Assembly: GCA_028716265.1 (NCBI GenBank)
Contig: JAQUQD010000016.1
Location: forward strand, 1 to 49,295
Length of the DNA: 49,295 nucleotides
From: Bacteroidales bacterium
GTDB taxonomy: Bacteria; Bacteroidota; Bacteroidia; Bacteroidales; JAGONC01
Direction of reading: 5' to 3'
The notes beneath the pieces are model-generated. The model made no database searches. It was not told where the DNA came from and worked only from the letters and a program-made list of their open reading frames with translations. Made by a program: the position numbers and the translations under genes. Shown piece by piece: positions 37,099 through 48,894 of this stretch; the stretch's first letter is position 1; the number at the start of each line of letters is the position of its first letter.

Positions 37099-38625
37099 CT
37101 ATTCCAGGCTGCCGATGGCTTTTTCGACCTCTTCGAGGATCTCACAGGACCGTACCAGTGTTTTCATGGCGTTGTGGTCAGGGTAAAGCGGACGGTCGAC
37201 ATCCAGGAAGGCGACGTATTTTCGGATTACATCTTTGGCTTTTGTGGTTCCGGTGCCAAACTGATATTCCCTGAAGTCGAGTGCCTGTGCGGCGGCCATC
37301 AGTTCAATCCCCAGTATTCCGTAGGCATTGTCGAGGATTTGGAAATTTTTCAGGGCTGTGTTCATCCCCATCGAAACGAAATCTTCCTGGTCGGCGGCGG
37401 CGGGTATGGATTGGATGGAGGCCGGCATGGAAAGGATCCGTTGCTCGACGATCTGCATGTCGGCGGTATACTGGCTCAGCATCAATCCGGAGAACATTCC
37501 CGCACCTTTGGTGAGGAAGGCGGGAAGGCCCACGCTGAGCGCCGGGTTGTTCAGGCGGTTCATCCTTCTTTCCGACATTACGCTCACCATGGTAATGGCG
37601 GCACCTGCCATATCCATGGGCAGTGCCACCGGGCTGCCCTGAAAATTGGCCCCCGACAGTTGCAGGTTTTCTTCCGGAAAGAAGATCGGATTATCGCCCA
37701 CACCATTCAGTTCGGCTTCGACCTGGCTGCGTGCATAGGCCAGTGCATCATGAGCAGCGCCGATCACCTGCGGGGTTGAGCGCATCGAATACGCATCCTG
37801 CACCTTGCATTTGATCCTGTTCTCGGCCAGGTCCCCGTGTTCGATCATTTTGCGGATCGCGCGTGCAGAGCGGATGGCTCCGGGGAATCCGCGCGCTTCA
37901 TGCAGCTTCGGCAGGTAAGGCTTCATGTTGGCCTTGAGGGCTTCCAGTGACATGGCGGCGGCTATCTCGGCCTGTTTCAGCCAGCGGTTGGCGTCGTAAA
38001 GGAAGATGGCGCTCATGGAGGTCAGCAGGTTCGATCCGTTGATGGCTGCCAGGCCGTCGCGGGCTTTCAGGCCGGGCACCGGGATGCCGGCTTTGTTCAG
38101 GGCCTCCTTGCCTTCGAGCAGTTTCCCTTTGTAATAGGCTTTCCCCTCGCCCATCATCAGCAGGGCGATCTGCGACATGGGAGCCAGGTCGCCGCAGGCT
38201 CCCACCGAGCCTTTCTGGCAGACGTGCGGTGTCACCCCCCTGTTGAGCATATCTACCAGGGTCTGCGTGATTTCAGGGCGGCAACCGGAATGGCCCTTGG
38301 CATGGACGTTCGCACGCGACAGCATGGCTGCCCTGACATGCTCCAGCGGCGCCGGGTCGCCGATACCTGCCGCATGATTATAGATAAGGTAGCGCTGAAA
38401 CTGACTCACCTGCTCATCGGTCAGGACCACTTCCGAGAATTCTCCGATCCCCGTGTTGATCCCGTACATGATCTCTCCCGCCTCGATTTTCCGTTCCACC
38501 ATCTTCCTGCACCGTACGATGCGTTCCTTTGCCTCCGGATGAAGCTCTACTTTCTGGCCCCACCGTGCAACGTTGATAATGTCCTCAATTCGTAGATCAT
38601 TACCGGTAATATAATATGTCTTCAT
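37099..38625 (-). CDS. hutH: Histidine ammonia-lyase family protein with an Ala-Cys-Gly MIO triad
   Basis: HutH deaminates histidine to urocanate using the MIO cofactor, formed in most of the family from Ala-Ser-Gly. The 508-residue protein has the fold and active-site residues at nearly the same numbers as the Pseudomonas enzyme: Tyr54 (MYGINTG), His84 (NHAAGIG), Asn196 (INGSN), Tyr279 and Arg282 (QDAYSMR), Phe328 (NFQG) and Glu394 (VEQR). The triad is Ala143-Cys144-Gly145 (GSVGACGDLAPM); the Cys codon is at 38194-38196. His84 and Glu394 favour histidine over phenylalanine or tyrosine, but an aminomutase or another aryl-alanine lyase is possible. No hutU, hutI or hutG is adjacent. Upstream is a repeat array that reaches the start codon, then hisS. 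Confidence 0.88.
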   Translation of the reverse strand: MKTYYITGNDLRIEDIINVARWGQKVELHPEAKERIVRCRKMVERKIEAGEIMYGINTGIGEFSEVVLTDEQVSQFQRYLIYNHAAGIGDPAPLEHVRAAMLSRANVHAKGHSGCRPEITQTLVDMLNRGVTPHVCQKGSVGACGDLAPMSQIALLMMGEGKAYYKGKLLEGKEALNKAGIPVPGLKARDGLAAINGSNLLTSMSAIFLYDANRWLKQAEIAAAMSLEALKANMKPYLPKLHEARGFPGAIRSARAIRKMIEHGDLAENRIKCKVQDAYSMRSTPQVIGAAHDALAYARSQVEAELNGVGDNPIFFPEENLQLSGANFQGSPVALPMDMAGAAITMVSVMSERRMNRLNNPALSVGLPAFLTKGAGMFSGLMLSQYTADMQIVEQRILSMPASIQSIPAAADQEDFVSMGMNTALKNFQILDNAYGILGIELMAAAQALDFREYQFGTGTTKAKDVIRKYVAFLDVDRPLYPDHNAMKTLVRSCEILEEVEKAIGSLE

Positions 38626-38762
38626 TGTTCTATTGTTCTATTGTTAAATTGGTAATTCATTGTTCAATTGTTCAATTGTTCTATTGTTCTATTGTTGACT
38701 GTTGACTGTTGACTGCTGACTGCTGACTGCCTGCCGCCTACTGCCAATTGTCAACTGTCAAC
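38624..38762. repeat. Composite tandem repeat: octamers (ATTGTTCT-type) then heptamers (TGTTGAC-type)
   Basis: From the hutH start codon outward on the plus strand there are about seven octamers (ATTGTTCT, ATTGTTCA, ATTGTTAA), with one irregular unit at 38648-38658. Then come about eight heptamers (TGTTGAC three times, TGCTGAC twice, a degenerate stretch, TGCCAAT, TGTCAAC twice). The array fills 139 of the 253 bases between hisS and hutH. The remaining 38763-38878 has no recognisable gene or hairpin. The unit lengths (7 and 8) are too short, and spacers are absent, so this is not a CRISPR array. Confidence 0.85.
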
Positions 38763-38878
38763 CGGAAACAGAGCGCAGTGCGGTTGATCTTGATCTTGAA
38801 TTCGAGGATGGAGTTACGCATGGGATACAAAAGCCATTTGCTCGGCGCTGCGCGCCTCGCGTTATTCATAGTTATTTT

Positions 38879-40243
38879 TCAGGTTAAAAGGTCATTTAAA
38901 AATGCTTCGAATGTGGTTGAATGTTGTTCCCCGCTTTTCATGTCCTTTACGCTTATCATTCCTGTTGTCAGTTCATTTTCCCCGATAAGTACGATATACG
39001 GGATTCTTTTTTTATCGGCATAGGCGAACTGTTTCTTCAGTTTGGTATTTTCGGGGTAAACTTCCGTATTGATCCCGGCGTCGCGAAGCCGGTCAGCCAG
39101 CTCCATACACCTTGAAGCTTCGTTCGGTCCGAAGTTGACAAAAAGAACCCGCGTGGAGGAAGAAACACCTTCAGGGAAAAGATTCATCTCAAGCATCAGG
39201 TCGTATATCCGGTCAGCACCGAAAGATATCCCGACACCCGATACGCCTTCCAGGCCAAAGACCCCGGTCAGGTCGTCATACCTTCCGCCCCCGCAGATGC
39301 TTCCAATGCTCCTGCTGGCGGGAACTACCTCGATGATCGTGCCGGTATAATAGTTCAACCCCCTTGCGAGTGTCAGGTCGAGCTGAAGCTCACCTTTTCG
39401 TAAGGCCGGTTCCGAATGGAAGAGAACTTCTTCGATTTCCCGGATTCCCTGCTGGCCTGACGGGGACTCGATAAAAGCTTCGTTCAGCGTATTCAGCGTC
39501 TCATAGTGGTCGCCCTTCATCTCCAGGAAGTGGCTCAGCCGATCGAGGACAGAATTCGCTATGCCTTTATCCGACAGTTCTTTCATTGCATTTTCCAGTC
39601 CGGATTTATCAATTTTATCCAATGCGGTGGTCATCTCCTGGAACCGGTCGGCCAGCCCGGTCGTTTCGGCCAGTCCGGTCAGTATTTTCCGGTGGTTTAT
39701 ACGAATAAGTATGCCTATGCCCAGACTGGAAAAGACCCTGTCGATGATCCGGATCAGTTCTGCTTCGTTGAGGAGTGAATGGCTGCCGATGACATCGACG
39801 TCGCACTGGTAAAATTCGCGGTATCGCCCTTTCTGGGGTCTGTCGGCCCTCCAGACTGGTTGTATCTGGTATCTTTTAAAAGGAAGCGTCAGCTCATGCT
39901 GGTGCATGACGACAAACCGTGCAAACGGGACGGTGAGGTCATACCGCAGCCCTTTCTCACAGAGTTGCAGGGCCAGTTTGCCGGCATCACGGCTGGTCAG
40001 GTGATGCTCATCGACGCCCGACAGGAAATCCCCTGAGTTAAGGATTTTAAAAAGGAGCTTATCTCCTTCCTCGCCATATTTGCCAAGCAGGGTTGACAGG
40101 TATTCCATCGAAGGGGTTTCAATGGGCTGGTAGCCGTGTTGTTTGAACACAGCGGTGATCGTATCAAAAATCAGGTTTCTCCTGATCATCTCCTCCGGGG
40201 AGAAATCCCTTGTTCCCTTTGGCAGAGCCGGTTTCTCAGGCAT
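38879..40243 (-). CDS. hisS: Histidyl-tRNA synthetase
   Basis: HisRS charges tRNA-His in the cytoplasm. The 454-residue class II synthetase shows motif 1 (KQHGYQPIETPSMEYL), motif 2 (PFKRYQIQPVWRADRPQKGRYREFYQCD), the histidine-specific LARGLNYYTGT loop, motif 3 (GVGISFGADRIYDLM) and a C-terminal anticodon-binding domain (RVLFVNFG to IGENELTTGMISVKD). Length and motifs are normal for the eukaryote-like branch common in Bacteroidota. It starts 7 bases after the DUF4870 gene, so these two are cotranscribed. Confidence 0.96.
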   Translation of the reverse strand: MPEKPALPKGTRDFSPEEMIRRNLIFDTITAVFKQHGYQPIETPSMEYLSTLLGKYGEEGDKLLFKILNSGDFLSGVDEHHLTSRDAGKLALQLCEKGLRYDLTVPFARFVVMHQHELTLPFKRYQIQPVWRADRPQKGRYREFYQCDVDVIGSHSLLNEAELIRIIDRVFSSLGIGILIRINHRKILTGLAETTGLADRFQEMTTALDKIDKSGLENAMKELSDKGIANSVLDRLSHFLEMKGDHYETLNTLNEAFIESPSGQQGIREIEEVLFHSEPALRKGELQLDLTLARGLNYYTGTIIEVVPASRSIGSICGGGRYDDLTGVFGLEGVSGVGISFGADRIYDLMLEMNLFPEGVSSSTRVLFVNFGPNEASRCMELADRLRDAGINTEVYPENTKLKKQFAYADKKRIPYIVLIGENELTTGMISVKDMKSGEQHSTTFEAFLNDLLT

Positions 40244-44785: not shown

Positions 44786-47278
44786 ATGAAAAAAGTTTTA
44801 CTGTTTAGTTTGCTGATGTGCTTGGCAGGAGCCGTTTTATCACAAAGACCCGAGTTGAAAAATCCCATCAGGTTCGTGACTCCTGAAAGTACAAAATTGT
44901 ATCCTGCACAGATGGTTGCTTTTGAAAATGAAGCTTCCGGACCAGTTACATTTCAGGAGAAACCTGCGATGAACAGCATGAGTACAGGCCGTGATCTGAC
45001 TTTTATCAATATTGGGCAGTCAGGAAATGCAATGGGCTATTATAACAATCCAAGAACCTATATCTGGGCTGATCCCAGGATCAATTCGGTGGTATTCACC
45101 CAGCGAATGACCGGACCAGGCAACATAGTGGAAGGAAATGGCCGTATAGCATACGATGTTTCCTGGAATGGAGGAGCCAATGGGAGCTGGACCAGCAATA
45201 TTCAGGTGTATACACCGCTTGAGCCTGGTTCCGGAGAATATCCTGTAGCCGCAGGCCGTTATCCCCAGGGAGGCATTATGAATCCTCCGGGCAATACTGA
45301 TCCTGACAATGCGTATTATACCTATTTCATTGCAACGATAGACTATTCAAATCCCTGCAGTGAAACCTGGGGCGGTTTAGCCCATGGCGTGAATGGTCTG
45401 ACAAACGTTTTTCCTCCGGCTCCCACCCAGACCAATCTAACCACGGATGAGGAGATTGGCAATGCGGTTCCTGATGCATTTACCATTACACAGGATGGAG
45501 AAGCCTTCATGGTACAGCCAAACATGCTTGAATGCGATGGTGGCAACGAATACCCTGATGGATACATTCAGGTATGGCACGGAATCTGGGACGAAGAAGA
45601 AAATGACCTCCTGTATGAGGTGGAGCTGTATGAAGTTTCAGCTCCATCAGAGTGGTGGAATGATCAGAAAGTTGCTTTTTCTCCTGATGGTCAAACAGGA
45701 TATATCTGTATCATGACCAATTCCGACAGTGACCCCCTTGAATACAATGGATATCATCCCACCCTGTTAAAGACCATTGATGGCGGCGATAGCTGGGATG
45801 GCCCTTATGAAGTTGCCCTGGGCGGTTATGATGGTATTGATTCCATCAAAACCTACTGGCCTGATGAATGGCTGCTACAAGTACCTGACTATGCCAATGG
45901 ATTTGACAGGGATACGGTTTGGTATAACATGGGATATCATCTCGATATGGTAGTGGATGCTTACGGGAATCCTCACCTGACAGGGATCATTGGCCCTGCT
46001 ACACCCTCAGGATCATGGTATCCCACTACGACCTGGCATTTATATTCCAGCGACGGTGGCGAAACCTGGGAAGCAGTCCCTCTCTACAATAACCTTACTT
46101 TTGATGGTGAGGTCGGCGGAGCCAACGCCATCAACATATACAACAGACCCCAGATCTCATCCGATATTACAGGCAAGTTCATTTTCATCTCCTGCCTTGA
46201 CACTGATTTTACCGGCGTCACGGACAACAACCAGCCGGATATCTTCATGTGCTCCTACGACGTCGATAAAGATGAATACACCGATATGGTCAATCTGACC
46301 GAGTTTACTCCCGCATGGCTGATCGCCTTTGAAGGCAGCCAATCGCACTACGTATTCTCTGAAGTGGACGGCACTACGGTTACCTGCACGGTTCCCTTTG
46401 TCTATATGGAGCTGGGCAAGGATGAAATGCAAGAATATGACGGTGGCTTGCCGGTGAATTTCTGGTACATCGACGGAGTGACCTATGAATTCACCGTTGA
46501 GTCACCCTATCAGCCGCCAACGGGACTTACCGGATCCTACCTGTGCTATGATGCAACCCTTACCTGGCAGGCACCTGGTGTGGGAACTCCGATTGGATAT
46601 AATGTGTACCGTGACAATGTGAAGATCAATGCTGACCCGGTCACTGCGCTTACCTATACCGACATGGATGTCACTCCCGGCTCCCATGTCTACAAGGTAA
46701 CTGCCGTTTACGATGGTGGCGAATCCACACCCACCAACACGGTTTCACTGGATATCGAATCCCTGGATGCTATCACGAACCTGGTGGTCTTCAATGAAGA
46801 GGGCACCCCTGATGTTTCACTTACATGGACAGCCCCCGCAAGAGCACTCACTGGGTACAATGTTTACCGCAACGATGCTTTGCTGACCACTACTCCGATC
46901 ACGGAAACGTCATACAATGACCTTGGTCTTGAGAATGGCTCATATACCTATTGTGTAAAAGCCGTCTACCAGACCGAATGCGAATCTGAGTCGGTCTGCA
47001 ACGAAACACCGATCAAAATTACCGTGGGTATCAGGGAAATCGAGAACAGCTTCTCGATCTACCCGAATCCGGCCAATGAGTCGCTGACCATGCAGTTCAC
47101 GATCCCTGTCAAATCCGTAAAGATCCTGAACGACATGGGAGCAGTGGTATATTCGAATACCAAGGTTGGGCAGAATGGTATCCTGAAAGTGAATGTATCA
47201 TCCTTCGAACCAGGTATCTATTTTGTTCAGGTGATGACCGACAAGGGCATTGCCACCAAGAAAGTGACGGTGAACTAG
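44786..47278 (+). CDS. Secreted Asp-box (sialidase-like propeller) protein with FN3 modules and T9SS type A sorting domain
   Basis: The 830-residue protein has a signal peptide (about 1-20, ending VLS-QRP). Residues about 70-560 look like a beta-propeller: two Asp-boxes fit S/T-x-D-x-G-x-x-W, TIDGGDSW (330-337) and SSDGGETW (421-428), and SPDGQTGYI (299-307) is a degenerate one. Asp-boxes occur in sialidases and other propellers; the catalytic Arg triad and Tyr of sialidases cannot be recognised here, so an enzyme function is not claimed. Two FN3-like modules follow (about 580-670 and 672-752, with GYNVYRDN and GYNVYRND). The end (FSIYPNPANESLTMQF to GIATKKVTVN) is a type A sorting domain for secretion and surface anchoring by the type IX system. 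Confidence 0.88.
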   Translation: MKKVLLFSLLMCLAGAVLSQRPELKNPIRFVTPESTKLYPAQMVAFENEASGPVTFQEKPAMNSMSTGRDLTFINIGQSGNAMGYYNNPRTYIWADPRINSVVFTQRMTGPGNIVEGNGRIAYDVSWNGGANGSWTSNIQVYTPLEPGSGEYPVAAGRYPQGGIMNPPGNTDPDNAYYTYFIATIDYSNPCSETWGGLAHGVNGLTNVFPPAPTQTNLTTDEEIGNAVPDAFTITQDGEAFMVQPNMLECDGGNEYPDGYIQVWHGIWDEEENDLLYEVELYEVSAPSEWWNDQKVAFSPDGQTGYICIMTNSDSDPLEYNGYHPTLLKTIDGGDSWDGPYEVALGGYDGIDSIKTYWPDEWLLQVPDYANGFDRDTVWYNMGYHLDMVVDAYGNPHLTGIIGPATPSGSWYPTTTWHLYSSDGGETWEAVPLYNNLTFDGEVGGANAINIYNRPQISSDITGKFIFISCLDTDFTGVTDNNQPDIFMCSYDVDKDEYTDMVNLTEFTPAWLIAFEGSQSHYVFSEVDGTTVTCTVPFVYMELGKDEMQEYDGGLPVNFWYIDGVTYEFTVESPYQPPTGLTGSYLCYDATLTWQAPGVGTPIGYNVYRDNVKINADPVTALTYTDMDVTPGSHVYKVTAVYDGGESTPTNTVSLDIESLDAITNLVVFNEEGTPDVSLTWTAPARALTGYNVYRNDALLTTTPITETSYNDLGLENGSYTYCVKAVYQTECESESVCNETPIKITVGIREIENSFSIYPNPANESLTMQFTIPVKSVKILNDMGAVVYSNTKVGQNGILKVNVSSFEPGIYFVQVMTDKGIATKKVTVN

Positions 47279-47303: not shown

Positions 47304-47344
47304 AAAAAGGATGACATCCTTCATCAGGGGATGTCATCCTTTTT
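47304..47344. terminator. Bidirectional intrinsic terminator
   Basis: AAAAAGGATGACATCC (47304-47319) and GGATGTCATCCTTTTT (47329-47344) pair perfectly over 16 bp with a 9-base loop. The A-run on one side and T-run on the other make it work on both strands. It separates two convergent genes and touches the stop codon of the pyruvate-kinase-like gene. Confidence 0.9.
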
Positions 47345-48894
47345 TATTTCAGAGAAGTGTTCAGTTCAGGTGAGAGGGGAGCCATCTTATCCTGGTAATC
47401 TTCCGTGTCGCGGATGATCTTATCGAGGAGCCGGACCGCTTCAAAAATATGATCCCCCTTGTTGAGCATGACGCATTCAGCCTGCTGTGACAGCGCGGCA
47501 TCGGTGATCTCGGCCCTGGAAGGCAGTCCTTTTTTAGCCAGGTTTTCAAGCACCTGGGTCGCCCAGATATCAGGCACGTGGGCAGCTTCACATATCCGGA
47601 GGATCTCCTGTTGAATGCGGGCCATGTTCTCCCACCCGCATTCAATGGCCAGGTCGCCCCGGGCGATCATCACCCCCACCGGAAAGGATCTCATCGCAGC
47701 CAGGAGTATTCCGGGGAGATGAAAGTATCCTTTTCGCGTTTCGATCTTCACCATGATCCCCATACGGACGTTCAGCCTGCCCAGCTCTTCCAGAAGCTGC
47801 TGAACGTCACCGGGGCCGTTCACAAAGGAAAGGTTGACGATGTCCGCATTCCGTGCAACGAACTCAAGGTCTTTTTTATCTTTTTCCGACAGTCCACCAA
47901 AAGTCAGACTGCTCTCCGGGAAGTTGATCCCCCGGTCTGCCCTGAGCTTGCTCCCGCCGGGCTTGGCCCTCGTTATCAGCACCGTCATTTCCCCGGCGGT
48001 AACATCCTGAATCATTCCTCCGATCTTACCATCATCAAAAAGAACAGACTCACCGGATTTTACGCAGCCGAATACCTCCGGGAAGGTGCAGGAGATATGT
48101 GCAGGCCTGACCGGTATCCCGTTCTCGTCGTTCACTGATGGCTCCCCGGGGACCGGATTCTTATGCACTATAAGCGTATCGCCTTCTTTTATAAGGATCC
48201 AGGGATTCCCGGCCGTCTTGCTTTCCGCGCTTATCCCTGGAGCCGGTTCATCTGTCTGGTCATTACCAAAACTGACCGGCCCTGTCCGTATCTTGGGTCC
48301 TGCGATGTCCATGACGATCCTGCAGGTCTTGCCTGTTTCCGACTCCGCACGGCGGATGTTGCTGATGATCCCTTCCCAGACCGCGGGCGTATCATGTGCA
48401 CAATTGATCCGGGCCACATTCATGCCGGTTTGAAGCAGCTGAAGGACAAAACCATCATCAGAGGCTGCCTCAGCCGGGAGCGTCACCATGATCCTCGTCC
48501 TTCTTCCCTGTGGCTTGTTACCGAACAGGGCCTTGGTATTGGCCCGCATGACCTTGGTGCTTTTCTTGATGGAGATGGCCTGCTTGCCCCGGATCGCTTC
48601 CATGTTGCCCCCGAGGCGGTTCAGGATCAGTCGTGTGCTGTTCAGACTGGCCATCACATGTGCTTCTGTTTTCGCCAGCCGCGACAAACCAAGGTACCCG
48701 AGCTTCTTTTGCATATCCCTGATATCGTGGTGACGCAATGCCAGGTAGTGTACAAGGTTCAGCGCGCTGTATTTATAATTGGGATGAACGGCGGCCAGTT
48801 CACCGGCATACTTCTTCCTGAAAGCCGTGGTCTCCTTCACGATCAGATCAAGACTGGATATGAGCTCATCGATCTTCTGGGCTTTGATTTTCAT
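47344..48894 (-). CDS. Pyruvate-kinase-like protein with N-terminal extension and no C-terminal domain
   Basis: Residues 131-495 match the pyruvate kinase barrel: TRIMVTL (133-139), GMNVARINCAHD (157-168), MDIAGPKIRTG (195-205), a B-domain-like part (about 206-320), FPESSLTFGGLSEKDKKDLEF, Lys383 and Glu385 (VKIE), Asp414 (ARGDL), and ATQVLE (445-450). The usual SxETAxGxYP after VML is replaced by NKGDHIFEAV. The normal C-terminal allosteric domain is missing: the protein ends 21 residues after the barrel. In its place is a 125-residue, mainly helical N-terminal extension with RHHDIRDMQKKLGYLGLSRLAKTEAHVMASL. It could be a kinase with different regulation or a different phospho-transfer substrate. 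The metal and phosphate residues suggest it is active. Confidence 0.82.
   Translation of the reverse strand: MKIKAQKIDELISSLDLIVKETTAFRKKYAGELAAVHPNYKYSALNLVHYLALRHHDIRDMQKKLGYLGLSRLAKTEAHVMASLNSTRLILNRLGGNMEAIRGKQAISIKKSTKVMRANTKALFGNKPQGRRTRIMVTLPAEAASDDGFVLQLLQTGMNVARINCAHDTPAVWEGIISNIRRAESETGKTCRIVMDIAGPKIRTGPVSFGNDQTDEPAPGISAESKTAGNPWILIKEGDTLIVHKNPVPGEPSVNDENGIPVRPAHISCTFPEVFGCVKSGESVLFDDGKIGGMIQDVTAGEMTVLITRAKPGGSKLRADRGINFPESSLTFGGLSEKDKKDLEFVARNADIVNLSFVNGPGDVQQLLEELGRLNVRMGIMVKIETRKGYFHLPGILLAAMRSFPVGVMIARGDLAIECGWENMARIQQEILRICEAAHVPDIWATQVLENLAKKGLPSRAEITDAALSQQAECVMLNKGDHIFEAVRLLDKIIRDTEDYQDKMAPLSPELNTSLK

Follow-up and report, generated by a model that had tools for sequence, protein, structure and literature searches.

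A putative single-lid pyruvate kinase of the Pyk2 type, without a C-terminal domain, in a Bacteroidales genome

The window analysed here, a stretch of 49,295 nucleotides from a Bacteroidales bacterium (assembly GCA_028716265.1, contig JAQUQD010000016.1), carries a gene for a 516 aa protein, P0001. With a probability of roughly 0.8 we take this protein to be a functional second pyruvate kinase (PK) of the type of Corynebacterium glutamicum Pyk2, its activity being presumed. The enzyme would have the barrel and lid of a normal PK and use them to phosphorylate ADP from PEP, and by analogy with Pyk2 its regulation most likely differs from that of the ordinary pyk. A helical N-terminal domain most likely replaces the C domain in subunit assembly and probably also in the response to effectors. 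In the lineage of the window an additional lid, B', was most likely lost, and the protein would work with the usual single lid. We infer both the role of the N-terminal domain and that of B'.

Among allosteric enzymes pyruvate kinase is a textbook case, and its fructose 1,6-bisphosphate (FBP) site, where present, lies in the C domain.

Results and Discussion

Gene location and domain architecture

The preliminary description of this DNA had placed the gene at 47344-48894, which is correct, and it is encoded on the minus strand with an ATG start. It stands alone in the window with no operon partners. The features are listed below with their coordinates in the window.

44786-47278, plus strand: downstream, convergent gene for a Por_Secre_tail protein with matches to the rhamnogalacturonan I lyase beta-domain
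47344-48894, minus strand: open reading frame of P0001, putative single-lid Pyk2-type pyruvate kinase, 516 aa
48520-48894, minus strand: N-terminal helical domain, residues 1-125, from the AlphaFold2 model and conservation
48277-48504, minus strand: first part of the (beta/alpha)8 barrel (A domain), residues 131-206, with R162, N164, A166 (the place of rabbit Ser76) and H167
48283-48309, minus strand: A/B hinge DIAGPKIRT, residues 196-204
48205-48276, minus strand: linker of about 24 residues (207-230), the site of B' in two-lid relatives, variable within the genus
47941-48204, minus strand: single B (lid) domain, approximately residues 231-318, with HISCTFPEVF and FDDGKIGG
47395-47940, minus strand: second part of the barrel, approximately residues 319-500
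47740-47748, minus strand: catalytic K383-I-E385
47653-47655, minus strand: D414 in ARGDLAIE
47434-47469, minus strand: MLNKGDHIFEAV, residues 476-487, in place of MLSxETAxGxYP
from about 48950, plus strand: upstream, divergent ORF, cut by the end of the window

The Pfam PK barrel (PF00224) was found at residues 131-478 (E 3e-50, 171.6 bits against a gathering score of 30), and solved PKs match P0001 with E values down to 6.1e-35. Beyond the barrel, the Pfam search of the protein returned no family at E<=1 and no PK_C (PF02887). From N478 to the C-terminus there are 39 residues in P0001 versus 159-173 in 16 aligned ordinary PKs, and the C domain is therefore absent, as had been claimed. The lid is of the usual kind, as a profile of the family B domain matches that of ordinary B domains with a probability of 99.1%.

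Residues were compared in an alignment of 57 family rows, including P0001, and 16 ordinary PKs, the latter hand-picked from 107 barrel-matching loci outside the retained family rows. Family rows were the fetched loci with a BLAST match to P0001 residues 1-125 at E<=1e-3, and N-terminal conservation among the 57 is therefore partly by construction. Left out were L012, which is cut by a contig end, L111, which has an in-frame TAG, L154, in which the frame is broken, and ten duplicates.

P0001 is under purifying selection and its N-terminal extension is constrained protein. When compared to congener L007, dN/dS was 0.112 overall, 0.099 in the N-terminal domain, 0.076 in residues 328-516 and 0.329 in the B domain. 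Pieces of the barrel gave 0.05-0.08 where dS was estimable, several pairs with L008 giving no estimate of dS. These values bear on whether P0001 is a redundant gene in decay, in which the lid insert was lost through degeneration. Such decay would fit the missing B' insert, the looser B domain, and the broken copies seen elsewhere (a second copy in genome G112 and a remnant in G197), but the frame is open in P0001, L007 and L008, the overall and barrel dN/dS values are low, and the single B domain of P0001 is complete. We therefore consider decay very improbable, and favour a functional Pyk2-type enzyme.

Family assignment and relationship to C. glutamicum Pyk2

The best match of P0001 was the NCBIfam model NF011314 (PRK14725, 'pyruvate kinase', 614 positions) with an E value of 6.4e-188; its score of 625.9 bits misses the curated cut-off of 642. 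In the genome search this match is split between model positions 7-217 and 333-609, with the approximately 115 positions 218-332 unmatched, and the middle stretch of the model is therefore absent from P0001. The curated cut-off of the ordinary PK model TIGR01064 was also unmet (207.6 against 306.4 bits), and in the tree the family is separated from the 16 ordinary PKs with support of 100/100.

At E<=1e-150 NF011314 matched one of 14 control genomes, that of C. glutamicum. At E<=0.001 all 14 were matched, which we attribute to their ordinary PKs. Based on this genome-level control match and on its anatomy, C. glutamicum Pyk2 (NCgl2809) is a probable member of the NF011314 family. According to the study describing it, Pyk2 is a protein of 67.6 kDa with a 120-aa N-terminal extension and no C domain (PMC5112673).

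The preliminary description knew of no characterised member, which was mistaken, since Pyk2 was characterised in 2016 as a PEP/ADP pyruvate kinase (PMC5112673). Its S0.5 is 4.58 mM for PEP and 0.33 mM for ADP, and its kcat with PEP, 5.58 per s, is lower than that of Pyk1. FBP reduces the S0.5 for PEP to 2.17 mM and raises kcat, and ATP inhibits the enzyme by lowering kcat. Gel filtration gave approximately 431 kDa, which was read as a hexamer, and a distinct allosteric mechanism was inferred by the authors. Furthermore, Pyk2 rescues growth on ribose of a strain without both pyk genes, pyk2 stands in the gene order ldhA-pyk2, and its mRNA was up 14.24-fold in oxygen-deprived C. glutamicum (all from the same study, PMC5112673). 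An enzyme that is FBP-activated, ATP-inhibited and hexameric without a C domain backs, by analogy, the earlier suggestion that regulation may differ in P0001. As Pyk2 is activated by FBP without a C domain, FBP must be sensed elsewhere in the protein.

Vibrio cholerae VcIIIPK was also considered as a relative and was rejected, as its 1461-bp gene has the size of an ordinary PK gene and the protein shares 50% identity with VcIIPK. A search of the open-access literature found no paper on PRK14725 and nothing under names of active-site residues, and among the matches listed none was by its title about a PK with an N-terminal extension or without a C domain.

Catalytic residues and C-terminal signature

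R162, N164, K201, K383, E385, D414 and T446 are identical in all 57 family rows, and K383, E385 and D414, the last of which we take to be a metal ligand, are also found in 16/16 ordinary PKs. The PK barrel with these three residues intact, as first described, is thereby confirmed, and R162, N164, R412-G413 and T446 are present in P0001 as well. D196 is Asp in 56 rows and Glu in one. The Lys of the KGINxP motif, present in all ordinary PKs aligned and in 53/57 family rows, is Arg321 in P0001.

At its end P0001 has M476-L477 followed by N478-K479-G480-DHIFEAV. The C-terminal end had been described as rewritten, and MLNKG does replace MLSxETAxGxYP, but this is not private to the gene, as N478, K479 and G480 are fixed in every family row; the column of N478 holds Ser in each of the 16 ordinary PKs. 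The Glu of the ETA motif, which presumably sits near the PK active site, is lost across the whole family. A total of 16 positions in the barrel and tail are fixed in >=93% of the family and present in no more than one of the 16 ordinary PKs, and these include W173, G420, H439, W444, N478 and K479. A similar MLNKG-type end is probably also carried by the plant plastidial PK At3g49160.

These replacements could be taken to mean that the PK fold has shifted to another phosphate acceptor, or to another enol phosphate. The S-x-E-T motif is gone, Ser76 has become Ala, the 16 positions are fixed unlike those of the 16 ordinary PKs, and an ordinary pyk is already present in the genome. Another acceptor is nevertheless unlikely because K383, E385, D414 and T446 are kept throughout the family; in addition, the family member is the sole PK barrel over the cut-off in seven of 19 genomes (five of them chosen for that trait), and Pyk2 converts PEP and ADP to pyruvate in vitro and can stand in for Pyk1 in vivo (PMC5112673). 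The suggestion that the acceptor differs is accordingly unsupported, and we give it very little credence in comparison with PK activity.

Some observations do count against the PK reading, namely the low kcat of Pyk2, the NF011314 cut-off missed by P0001, Arg321, and the lost Glu of the ETA motif.

Signature of monovalent cation dependence

The hinge of P0001 carries I, A, K and T at rabbit positions 113, 114, 117 and 120 in the register of our own alignment, which is a mixed K+ signature: K117 marks K+-independent PKs and T120 goes with K+-dependent ones (PMC8835810). Lys is found at position 117 in 57/57 family rows, and the family is therefore predicted to be K+-independent. At the place of rabbit Ser76, Ala is found in 54/57 rows, including A166 of P0001. 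In rabbit PK Ser76 serves as a ligand of K+, and Ala stands there in the K+-independent PK of Pyrobaculum aerophilum (PMC4374775). Pyk2, however, is reported to need Mn2+ together with a monovalent cation, K+ being the best (PMC5112673). This requirement conflicts with a simple K117 rule, so that the family offers a test of the K+ rule.

N-terminal domain

The extension ahead of the PK barrel is approximately 125-130 residues long in P0001. It had been described as helical, and this agrees with the AlphaFold2 model, which is a helical bundle of moderate confidence (mean pLDDT 73.6, with residues 102-112 below 50). Six of the seven predicted helices lie in residues 5-94, and the model shows no interface. 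The conserved core comprises S43, N46, Y50, R54, D57, Q62, L65, G69, L73 and E77; among the 57 rows N46, Y50 and L65 are invariant, and R54, Q62, G69 and E77 nearly so. This pattern of conservation suggests a packed interface or a site for a small ligand.

Pfam returned nothing at E<=1 for residues 1-128 of P0001, and scattered weak matches were obtained with other members, the strongest at E 0.0045. When the PDB was searched with a profile, four matches were obtained at E<=1, the best of which (0.014) is a designed barrel and was taken as chance, and Foldseek with the model gave no match at E<=0.001. The domain can therefore be called new, as it had been, in the sense that neither Pfam nor the PDB yielded a clear relative, but not in the sense of being unrecorded: NF011314 already covers it, P0001 aligning from model position 7, and the extension is homologous to that of the model, whose positions 7-217 are matched.

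The best VIA match of the N-terminal model was the HPt domain of CheA (Z 7.1, rmsd 3.5, 80 residues), which is in the range of common bundles, and we make no claim of a new fold. A phosphorelay role like that of HPt domains was considered and is unlikely because there is no fixed phospho-acceptor His: no N-terminal His falls in the columns kept in 90% of rows, the best being H79 (41/57) and H49 (39/57).

The genome searches tested the link between domain and family independently of how the rows were selected. Among 395 genomes of the window's phylum, a profile of residues 1-128 matched 38/38 of those bearing the family, and the only other matches were a remnant with a stop in G197 and two marginal ones (E 0.004 and 0.007). 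In this sample, therefore, the N-terminal domain never occurs without the PK.

A second lid in relatives and its loss in the genus of the window

The interval corresponding to residues 206-266 of P0001 is 148-160 residues long in 32/57 family rows (the long form), compared to 60 in P0001, 60 and 69 in its congeners, 30-49 in the other short rows and 27-33 in ordinary PKs. The insert that stands before the lid in the long form, B', is approximately 100 residues and is absent from P0001. When the insert of L011 was folded alone (nine rows), a confident all-beta model was obtained (mean pLDDT 84.1).

Foldseek with this model gave 1057 matches at E<=10, and the 50 listed are all PKs with a probability of 0.90-1.00, the best E being 0.014 and none reaching E<=0.001. 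One of them, 3khd_B, bears only a gene name and is presumably the Plasmodium PK; the Pyrobaculum structure 3qtg is also among the matches to this insert. VIA gave the same picture, the 50 chains listed of 633 (Z>=2) all being PKs. The insert aligned to 8iw2 with Z 11.4 and rmsd 4.1 over 92 positions, and to residues 90-181 of 1pkl_B, which we take to be the lid of that chain, with 84 residues aligned at Z 10.5 (rmsd 2.5 A). Profile comparison of B' with B gave probabilities of 2.6% (family B) and 3.6% (ordinary B), and the score against ordinary B, 16.3, is barely above the best of 59 shuffles (15.5). As neither the sequence profiles nor the Foldseek E values are decisive, the identification of a second lid rests on predicted structure. 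On this basis about half of the sampled family (32/57 rows, 19/38 genomes) appears to have two tandem lids at the A/B hinge, in the order B'-B. No paper on a duplicated B or lid domain of PK was found in the open-access literature, and what is new here is the insert of approximately 100 residues in 32/57 rows with a predicted fold resembling a second PK lid.

In the tree, which was built from barrel columns without the insert, the single-lid P0001, L007 and L008 have as their sister L119, a two-lid member from the same taxonomic family, with support of 96/89. The earliest branches within the family (L105, L101, then L016 with L019) are all two-lid. A single clade of all 25 single-lid rows was rejected with a p-AU of 0.0009 for a group chosen after inspection of the tree. 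Given these two-lid early branches and the rejected clade, the ancestor of the family probably had B', with two or more losses since. The genus of the window most likely lost it separately from the other single-lid members. The direction of change was probably loss and not gain, repeated gain being a less simple alternative.

L016, from a contig labelled uncultured Thalassobius, groups with Flexithrix (Bacteroidota) with support of 100/98, which may reflect a mis-binned contig or a transfer.

Distribution and genome context

The family is present in 38/395 genomes of the phylum, 19 with a match above the NF011314 cut-off and 19 with the shorter, two-piece form. In the plasmid collection eight records matched at E<=1e-60, and these come from Cyanobacteria, Alpha- and Gammaproteobacteria and Bacteroidota. 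The Hymenobacter (L164) and Thiodictyon (L166) plasmids carry long-form genes near phosphate-uptake (pst) genes. On the plasmid of Nostoc sp. C052 (L160, 3827-7359), typed as conjugative, genes for L-lactate dehydrogenase and phosphoglycerate mutase come after that of a single-lid PK, and this PK-LDH order recalls ldhA-pyk2 of Corynebacterium. A tblastn search with the Nostoc LDH over 167 loci, many of which have short flanks, found only itself.

Broken copies were also seen. G112, whose genome also has an intact copy, has a frame-broken second one (L154, G112:C1:3541195-3543047), and G197:C58:2716-2907 holds a short remnant of a family gene with a stop. In G117 the NF011314 search gave three matches, all weak (best E 2.6e-18), with no PF00224 match and no match to the N-terminal profile.

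At G000:C6 the genome of the window also encodes a PK of the ordinary kind, complete with C domain, which settles the point of whether a second, normal pyk exists, and this is the one PF02887 match of the genome. Since the host has this gene, it may not need that of P0001. The ordinary pyk (L001, in the region G000:C6:22629-23687) has an apparent insert before the KIEKP motif, where its PF00224 match is split, and the same split is seen in congeners G395 and G396. Within the window, an aromatic amino acid lyase adjoins a histidyl-tRNA synthetase gene at 37099-40243 on the minus strand.

PF00224 matches were found in 17 of 19 genomes searched, and in seven the family member is the sole match over the cut-off, five of these having been chosen because the NF011314 search had shown one match. 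The other two, G397 and G398, were not so chosen; they belong to the same taxonomic family as the window but to different genera. One further PF00224 match, below the cut-off, is present in each of G397 and G260. PPDK_N-containing proteins are encoded in 10/10 genomes tested, including all seven, and the sole-PK genomes therefore support, without proving, a PK function of the family.

That the host has a regular pyk, C domain included, could also indicate that P0001 is a catalytically weak or silent paralogue which regulates the cell's ordinary PK, for example in mixed oligomers. Mixed PK oligomers have been reported for Arabidopsis PKs (PMC7154858), and the kcat of Pyk2 is lower than that of Pyk1 (PMC5112673). 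This is unlikely, however, given that the catalytic residues are invariant in 57/57 rows and that seven of the 19 genomes (again, five selected for this trait) lack any further PK barrel above the cut-off; a protein without a C domain would also be an improbable partner in an ordinary tetramer. An active second PK is thus preferred.

More broadly, and as a tentative proposal that may well prove wrong, the Pyk2 type could be a separate PK design in which allostery and assembly were moved from the C domain to the N-terminal domain, and in which the lid was duplicated in tandem, the additional copy being given up on two or more occasions. If this is true, the window's taxonomic family, with both single- and double-lid enzymes, is a natural experiment on which part senses FBP. 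As P0001 is single-lid and has two-lid sisters, the two candidate sensors, the N-terminal domain and the extra lid, are separable.

Comparison with known pyruvate kinases

P0001 resembles C. glutamicum Pyk2 in having an N-terminal extension of approximately 120 aa, a PK barrel and no C domain. The two differ in that residues 214-345 of Pyk2 lie outside the A-domain ranges given by the authors (PMC5112673), a gap which would fit an extra lid. With the ordinary PykF and PykA (PF00224 and PF02887) P0001 shares the barrel, single lid and catalytic residues, and it is unlike them in its helical N-terminal domain, missing C domain, MLNKG end and Ala at the place of Ser76. The last feature is shared with the PK of Pyrobaculum aerophilum, going by the published description of that enzyme. 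P0001 also resembles in form the plasmid relatives in Nostoc, Novosphingobium, Skermanella and Paracoccus, which are proteins of 490-517 aa with the N-terminal domain, the MLNKG end and a single lid. These are placed elsewhere in the tree and are 35-42% identical to P0001, and they probably represent a separate loss of the extra lid.
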